A DNA stretch of 64,000 bases from contig JAHPZJ010000025.1 in NCBI GenBank assembly GCA_019058245.1, positions 28,408-92,407 of the forward strand, given 5' to 3'. The notes beneath the pieces were generated by a model. It saw nothing but the letters and a program-made list of their open reading frames with translations. It ran no database searches and was not told where the DNA came from. Shown piece by piece: positions 44,793 to 45,402 of the stretch; within the stretch, counting starts at the first letter, position 1; each line of letters opens with the position of its first letter. The translations under genes and the position numbers were made by a program. This stretch comes from Promethearchaeota archaeon (GTDB taxonomy: Archaea > Asgardarchaeota > Lokiarchaeia > Sigyniarchaeales > SOKP01).

Positions 44793-45402
44793 TTAAAATT
44801 CCAAAAATCCAGGATCATCAAAAATGTCGTCGATTTTACGTTCCTTTTTTATCTTGGTCTCACTTTCAGTAAACAAGGATTCCTCATCTGTACGAACTCC
44901 TCGTTCTAATTCTTCGGTATCTAATTTTAAAACTGTATCCTTTTCCAAACTCTTATATTTTTCGCTTTTTATTTTCCAGTCGTTAACCTCATCTAAATTA
45001 ACATCTTCTTCTTCTAATAGTACAGCAGCTTTAGTTTTACAAAGATCTGATAAAATTGAATAAGCTAATGCTAATTCACCCCATTCGTGATCATCTTTTA
45101 ATTTTTTTATTCTTTTCTCTAATCTTTGCAATTCTTGATCAGCATAATAAACATCAATAAAATCTCCGAATGCATCTACAGGTTCTGAAATAGAATTTAC
45201 TAATACTTCTTTTGTTAATCCACAATTTCCACATTTCACTGTAGCAAAAGCACCTTTCTTCTTTATATCAGTAACCTTAACACTTTTTTCACCGCATTCG
45301 AGGAAAGATCGGAATCCAATCTACTCATTCTGGGCAGGTGAAAATTTTAGGCACTCTCTTTACTCGTTTCGGTGATACTTGTTTACGCTTTCTTCTTCCC
45401 AT
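44793..45402 (-). CDS. Elf1-like transcription elongation factor, ORF interrupted by 31-nt insert
   Basis: MGRRKRKQVSPKRVKRVPKIFTCPE | insert | CGEKSVKVTDIKKKGAFATVKCGNCGLTKEVLVNSISEPVDAFGDFIDVYY. Confidence 0.85.
45300..45330 (-). other. 31-nt intervening sequence (candidate mRNA intron or bypass element)
   Basis: Flanked by 5-nt direct repeat GAATG (sense); has UGA and hairpin AGATTGG-ATT-CCGATCT; removal restores CPECG. Confidence 0.7.

Follow-up and report, generated by a model that had tools for sequence, protein, structure and literature searches.

How does an archaeon obtain a conserved transcription elongation factor from a gene that stops inside its own zinc-binding motif? The gene is elf1, on the minus strand of a stretch of 64,000 nucleotides (the window) from contig JAHPZJ010000025.1 of a Lokiarchaeal metagenome-assembled genome (MAG), and the interruption is an insert of 31 nt (45297-45327) directly after the residues TCPE. 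Read from its ATG at 45402, the frame encodes MGRRKRKQVSPKRVKRVPKIFTCPE and then meets a TGA right behind TCPE, and the open reading frame (ORF) caller starts at GTG 45239, reporting only a 148-aa downstream ORF. On the sense strand the region reads TTTTCACC TGC CCA GAA/TGAGTAGATTGGATTCCGATCTTTCCTCGAA/TGC GGT GAAAA. When the 31 nt are skipped, the frame runs on as CGEKSVKVTDIKKKGAFATVKCGNCGL... to a stop at 44793, giving a product of 192 aa. Along its whole length this product aligns with intact Promethearchaeota Elf1 proteins at identities of up to 93%, and the protein database contains no intact protein identical to it (closest, 93%). It also matches the Elf1 of eukaryotes in structures of complexes, with E 4e-9 for 8jh2 chain M. 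The most probable explanation, to which we assign roughly 93%, is that the insert is an intron of precursor messenger RNA (pre-mRNA) of the archaeal bulge-helix-bulge (BHB) type, spliced by the endonuclease EndA and the ligase RtcB. The layout of the locus is as follows.

45328-45402, minus strand: elf1 exon 1, 25 codons MGRRKRKQVSPKRVKRVPKIFTCPE, with near-only synonymous substitutions between intron-bearing relatives
45297-45327, minus strand: 31-nt putative BHB intron of elf1; same-site inserts of relatives have 28-32 nt, fold and covariation agree, and shuffles fail to match it
44793-45296, minus strand: elf1 exon 2, CGEKS... to the stop, with the Pfam Elf1 zinc ribbon PF05129

The original prediction, made from the letters of the window, had described the split after TCPE by TGA with a later start by the ORF caller, the restoration of the Elf1 N-terminus on removal of 31 nt, GAATG repeats at the junction and a 7-bp hairpin with one G-U pair, all of which are found on the sense strand. 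It had also reported a second interruption of about 30 nt, in the RNase HII gene rnhB, which is real and widespread in the family. The GAATG repeat leaves six equivalent registers in the window copy of elf1; it is incidental, since for several relatives (alignment A1) the choice is of just one or two registers.

Distribution of the insert and constraint on exon 1

A Pfam Elf1 profile was searched against 99 genomes and the matches were extracted; many begin at profile position 26-28 or hold a stop. Inserts of 30-32 nt lie exactly at TCPx/CGEK in 24 elf1 genes, to which a covariance model added those of genomes G018 and G100-G103 (one insert of 28 nt) and two tandem copies in contig C2 of G014. 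About 30 Lokiarchaeal genomes of independent assembly have this codon boundary split by 28-32 nt, and insert-bearing records come from separate projects (ABR05, Hel_238, CSMAG, WORC5, 33X4). Other members of the genus and family have an elf1 with neither insert nor scar, so that sister genomes, a comparison that the original prediction had proposed, include some with the same-site insert and some without it. On a tree of 54 spliced elf1 coding sequences, presence and absence require at least 10 changes, 8 of which are forced by well-supported branches. Among the sisters that differ are G040/G022, G017/G005 and G014/G008; G060 differs in the same way from G055, G038, G057 and G058, and G012 from G001 and G011. 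Around the junction, the loci L041 and L065 differ, insert aside, at a single one of the 57 exon bases printed.

Several observations bear on how the insert comes and goes. The two tandem elf1 copies in contig C2 of G014 (L170, about 875-946 and 1864-1935) are divergent, and both carry the same-site insert with a CCAA:UUGG centre; an intron-bearing elf1 was therefore duplicated. In G003, a MAG with 9% contamination, one elf1 has the intron and another lacks it (contigs C92 and C169). In two single-contig genomes of the genus, G004 and G009, no elf1 match was obtained with the Pfam, protein or intron model. Joined exons, sought in metagenomes, turned up in four intronless relatives, of which none was identical to any intron-bearing gene; at least two of these matches lie on contigs longer than 14 kb and are therefore evidently genomic DNA, not cDNA. 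Viral contigs gave no match to an elf1 query. Counts of changes fit mainly repeated loss as well as mainly repeated gain, and precise loss via spliced mRNA is the simpler reading of the pattern of presence and absence. Such a loss, if it is what happened, would itself imply splicing.

Changes in exon 1 between intron-bearing genomes are nearly all synonymous, as between L001 and L033 (7 synonymous, 0 non-synonymous), and purifying selection on elf1 exon 1 is strong. The exon is therefore translated in one piece with some sequence that requires it. This bears directly on the idea that Elf1 is broken here, unused, or begun downstream at GTG 45239. The 148-aa downstream ORF, as the sole output of the ORF caller at this gene, speaks for a pseudogene or a shortened protein; the conservation of exon 1 as protein speaks against it, as do the interruption of this same site, under a constrained fold, in some 30 genomes and the count of elf1 genes in the source assembly (3.09 Mb, 76% complete), which is one. 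The chance that elf1 is a pseudogene or encodes only the short form is very slight.

Structure and covariation at the junction

A BHB was read as an exon helix, a central helix between exon 1 and the 3' end of the intron, two bulges of 3 nt and an intron hairpin, and EndA was taken to cut each bulge 2/1, after its second nucleotide. The window copy is arranged in this way:

45334-45344, minus strand: exon-1 strand of the outer exon helix (H1), UUUUCACC-U-GC, from the fold; helix 1 has 95.4% of cells paired
45330-45333, minus strand: exon-1 strand of the central helix, CCAG, pairing with 45299-45302 (3/4 pairs in the window copy)
45327-45329, minus strand: 5' bulge AA/U, predicted cut 45328/45327, where BHB geometry coincides with the junction that the protein requires
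45303-45326, minus strand: intron hairpin (H2), GAG-U-AGAUUGG/CCGAUCU-UUC, from the fold; in this helix 3, 8/9 pairs have changed on both sides
45299-45302, minus strand: intron 3' strand of the central helix, CUCG, from the central-helix alignment
45296-45298, minus strand: 3' bulge AA/U, predicted cut 45297/45296, again at the junction that the protein requires
45286-45295, minus strand: exon-2 strand of H1, GC-GGUGAAAA, from the fold and pair counts

Nested helices already appear when the elf1 region is simply folded, and the cut rule, applied to the BHB, restores Elf1 exactly, with the junction TCPx/CGEK. The original prediction had noticed the complementarity of the exon sequences TTTTCACC and GGTGAAAA, which is indeed present. 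That complementarity is only the outer helix, and the diagnostic 4-nt central helix and the two 3-nt bulges had gone undescribed. The relaxed BHB that it had suggested looking for is seen in every insert examined. In all 24 aligned elf1 inserts the bulges measure exactly 3 nt, and 3 or 4 of the 4 central-helix pairs form. The later members (G018, G100-G103) fold as BHBs too, the 28-nt insert of G101 with a perfect 4-bp CCAA:UUGG centre.

The central helix is also where exon and intron are seen to change together. Its pairs across elf1 genes include CCAG:CUCG, CCUG:CAGA, CCGA:UCGG, CCAA:UUGG, CCAC:GAGG and CCGG:CCUG, with swaps between species of the kinds A-U/U-A/G-C and G-C/A-U/C-G. The covarying exon position is often the silent third position of a proline codon or the first position of a variable residue, and the intron partner follows it. 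Over the whole alignment 90.4% of cells are paired (helix 3, 89.4%); column shuffling lowers this to 80.4 +/- 0.8%, and sliding the partners to 44-50%. Double-change cells number 53 against 16, and in ten pairs both partners have changed, among them exon codon positions that vary in step with the intron. For each of the 24 genes, none of 400 mononucleotide shuffles of the insert gave an equally good BHB at the junction. A scan for frame-fusing BHBs over 452 kb of the same genome (the window and 388 kb of other stretches) listed 38 candidates, among which the elf1 site ranks first and the rnhB insert third. The runner-up, in L107, was rejected as lying inside an intact ORF, and a 32-nt candidate in L111 because its frame reads uninterrupted; a looser scan by coding score was swamped by the boundaries of genes in operons.

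The outer helix gives a less even picture. Watson-Crick pairs in the exon helix are commoner in intron-bearing elf1 genes (p ~1e-5, on raw counts that ignore phylogeny), and some intronless relatives (L051, L177, L179) keep the full complementary helix, as expected after recent clean loss.

Splicing enzymes and competing explanations

The source genome holds two genes of the EndA family (PF01974). EndA alpha (L103:1180-1773, plus strand; 197 aa) keeps the catalytic histidine in GIEH and aligns best to the catalytic chain of Aeropyrum (3p1z/3ajv chain B). EndA beta (L104:1438-2040) is a paralogue of 200 aa without that histidine, having D-S where M. jannaschii (1a79) has E-H-S. EndA is thus probably made here of a catalytic alpha and a structural beta subunit, which would be predicted to assemble as an (alpha-beta)2 heterotetramer. 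This type and the epsilon-2 type are those that efficiently cut relaxed BHBs (PMC6379350), and such EndA types process cbf5 pre-mRNA (PMC2738675). The Crenarchaea-specific loop of EndA has a lysine followed by P/V and K/R (K44-P45-R46 in Aeropyrum; PMC12397907); in an alignment to 3p1z, made for one genome, the N-K-P-R of the Lokiarchaeal alpha subunit falls on the Aeropyrum E-K-P-R. The ligase gene lies in the window itself:

26930-28402, minus strand: rtcB, the RNA ligase expected to join the exons (Pfam RtcB PF01139, E 9.7e-170)

With these enzymes, the flanking exons UUUUCACCUGC and GCGGUGAAAA would fold with the intron into a relaxed BHB after transcription. EndA, the transfer RNA (tRNA) splicing endonuclease, would then cut each 3-nt bulge after its second nucleotide, and RtcB would join exon 1 (...TGCCCAGAA) to exon 2 (TGCGGT...), so that the zinc knuckle of Elf1, CPECG, would be whole.

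The Rfam scan of the window found two tRNAs. Both window tRNA genes, at 14843-14943 (plus strand) and 13520-13623 (minus strand), have introns: a tRNA-Ile GAU (ARAGORN) has 40 nt extra in its anticodon arm, and the other about 31 nt extra in its variable region. Neither intron fits the strict symmetric BHB used here.

Some of the evidence weighs against an intron. The central helix of the window copy has a C-C mismatch, leaving 3/4 pairs, and its exon helix a 1-nt bulge; because of both, this BHB is relaxed and not canonical. Unconstrained folding favours a slightly different centre (-19.4 compared with -16.2 kcal/mol). When phylogenetically independent pairs are taken, the excess of exon-helix pairs is not significant, with 4.1 in favour and 0 against (sign test, p 0.125). 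The source is a Lokiarchaeal MAG that is 76% complete. Finally, conserved position, fold, covariation, presence and absence, coding constraint and the genes of both enzymes can all be read in the DNA, and it is from these that we infer the actual cutting and joining of elf1 RNA. The short archaeal mRNA intron suggested by the original prediction nevertheless draws support from the elf1 count, the sister genomes and the BHB fold.

Elf1 could also be produced from this gene by programmed translational bypassing, in which the ribosome would hop over the insert from a take-off codon beside a stop to a matching landing codon. The bypass element of T4 gene 60 is a short untranslated gap in a coding sequence with a hairpin and an adjacent stop, and elf1 resembles it in all of these respects: in the window copy the codon GAA stands directly before the stop TGA, GAA recurs as the final codon ahead of exon 2, and the insert has a hairpin. 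The match of take-off and landing codons is, however, not conserved: 9 of the 24 elf1 genes show it, and of the 17 rnhB genes none does. Instead, covarying structure ties exon 1 to the 3' end of the intron in the BHB register, which hopping does not need, and the precise losses at the DNA level fit the loss of an intron. Bypassing appears very improbable on these grounds.

An artefact of assembly or sequencing would be conceivable for a window derived from a MAG, were it not that the independent assemblies named above and many contigs carry evolving, compensated inserts; the presence of the insert in unrelated assemblies therefore excludes such an artefact for practical purposes. The patchy presence and absence might likewise suggest a mobile or self-splicing element, such as a small group I or II intron or the remnant of a transposon. 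An insert of no more than 28-32 nt that cannot encode a protein, has the structure of a BHB and keeps to one fixed site per gene is a poor candidate for this, and the Rfam scan of the window returned no group I or II intron; this origin is as negligible as an artefact.

The rnhB insert and known archaeal introns

At the other end of the window, rnhB is interrupted in the same manner, and the contig ends where the window ends.

63570-63604, plus strand: rnhB exon 1, LICGIDEAGR..., with the in-frame TTG 63570 as a possible start codon
63605-63634, plus strand: 30-nt putative BHB intron in rnhB, the second of its kind, from same-site relatives, fold and pairing
63635-64000, plus strand: rnhB exon 2, cut off by the end of the contig (Pfam RNase_HII PF01351)

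The insert follows GIDEAGR, and most genomes of the family have it and some do not. Cutting at the BHB gives the junction GIDEAGR/G. The central helix of the window copy, UGGU:AUUA, has 4/4 pairs, and across an alignment of 17 genes 90.9% of cells are paired, against 28-49% when slid. The partners of UGGU are ACCA, GUUA, AUUA and GUCA, and with GGG as the glycine codon the intron has CCUA, CCUU, CCCU or CCCC. Single rnhB folds are weaker than those of elf1, with 0-15 of 400 shuffles equally good.

The closest known system is the cbf5 pre-mRNA intron of Crenarchaeota (Desulfurococcales, Sulfolobales), which like that of elf1 is short (16-44 bp) and lies in a conserved protein gene (PMC2738675). 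Further likenesses are its unconventional BHB, with an inferred cut between the second and third bulge nucleotides, its placement in a catalytic motif (at the catalytic Asp of Cbf5), its lineage-specific losses and its association with hetero-oligomeric EndA (PMC2738675). The present case differs in its genes (elf1 and rnhB), in its lineage (Lokiarchaeia, Asgard) and in that splicing is inferred; the elf1 losses or gains, moreover, occur within a single genus and not between families. In this genus cbf5 itself is uninterrupted in 19/19 genomes. Archaeal tRNA introns use the same motif and presumably the same EndA/RtcB pathway, whereas the host of the elf1 insert is an mRNA. In Haloferax, EndA cuts an mRNA at BHB sites in HVO_1309; that BHB lies in the 5' untranslated leader and splits no reading frame (PMC7714728). 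A study of 2020 counted one archaeal BHB intron in an mRNA coding sequence, that of cbf5 (PMC7714728), to which elf1 and rnhB would add a second and a third host gene. What is new is the host genes and the Asgard lineage; the kind of intron is already known. No report of coding-sequence introns in Asgard archaea was found in the open-licence PMC literature, and papers outside it may mention them. Each of the three archaeal mRNA introns, counting the two proposed here, interrupts the motif that is most conserved in its gene: the Cbf5 catalytic Asp, the Elf1 zinc knuckle and the DEAGR of RNase HII.

Asgard archaea are the closest prokaryotic relatives of eukaryotes, and gene callers shorten both Elf1 and RNase HII, leaving Lokiarchaeal proteomes wrong at both loci. 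Presence and absence within one genus makes archaeal intron gain and loss directly testable. Because the same elf1 codon is occupied across several genera, in paralogous copies too, with at least 10 comings and goings, splicing of elf1 and rnhB could conceivably act as a regulatory switch, or the introns could be re-gained at fixed sites; we consider this unlikely. A switch would mean that selection retains splicing-dependent control over a transcription elongation factor and RNase HII. Re-gain would mean that Asgard archaea have an active route by which BHB introns are put in and taken out, through either reverse splicing or mRNA that has been reverse-transcribed.

Elsewhere in the window, an ORF at 55152-56381 (plus strand) resembles by eye a TnpB-type transposon protein.
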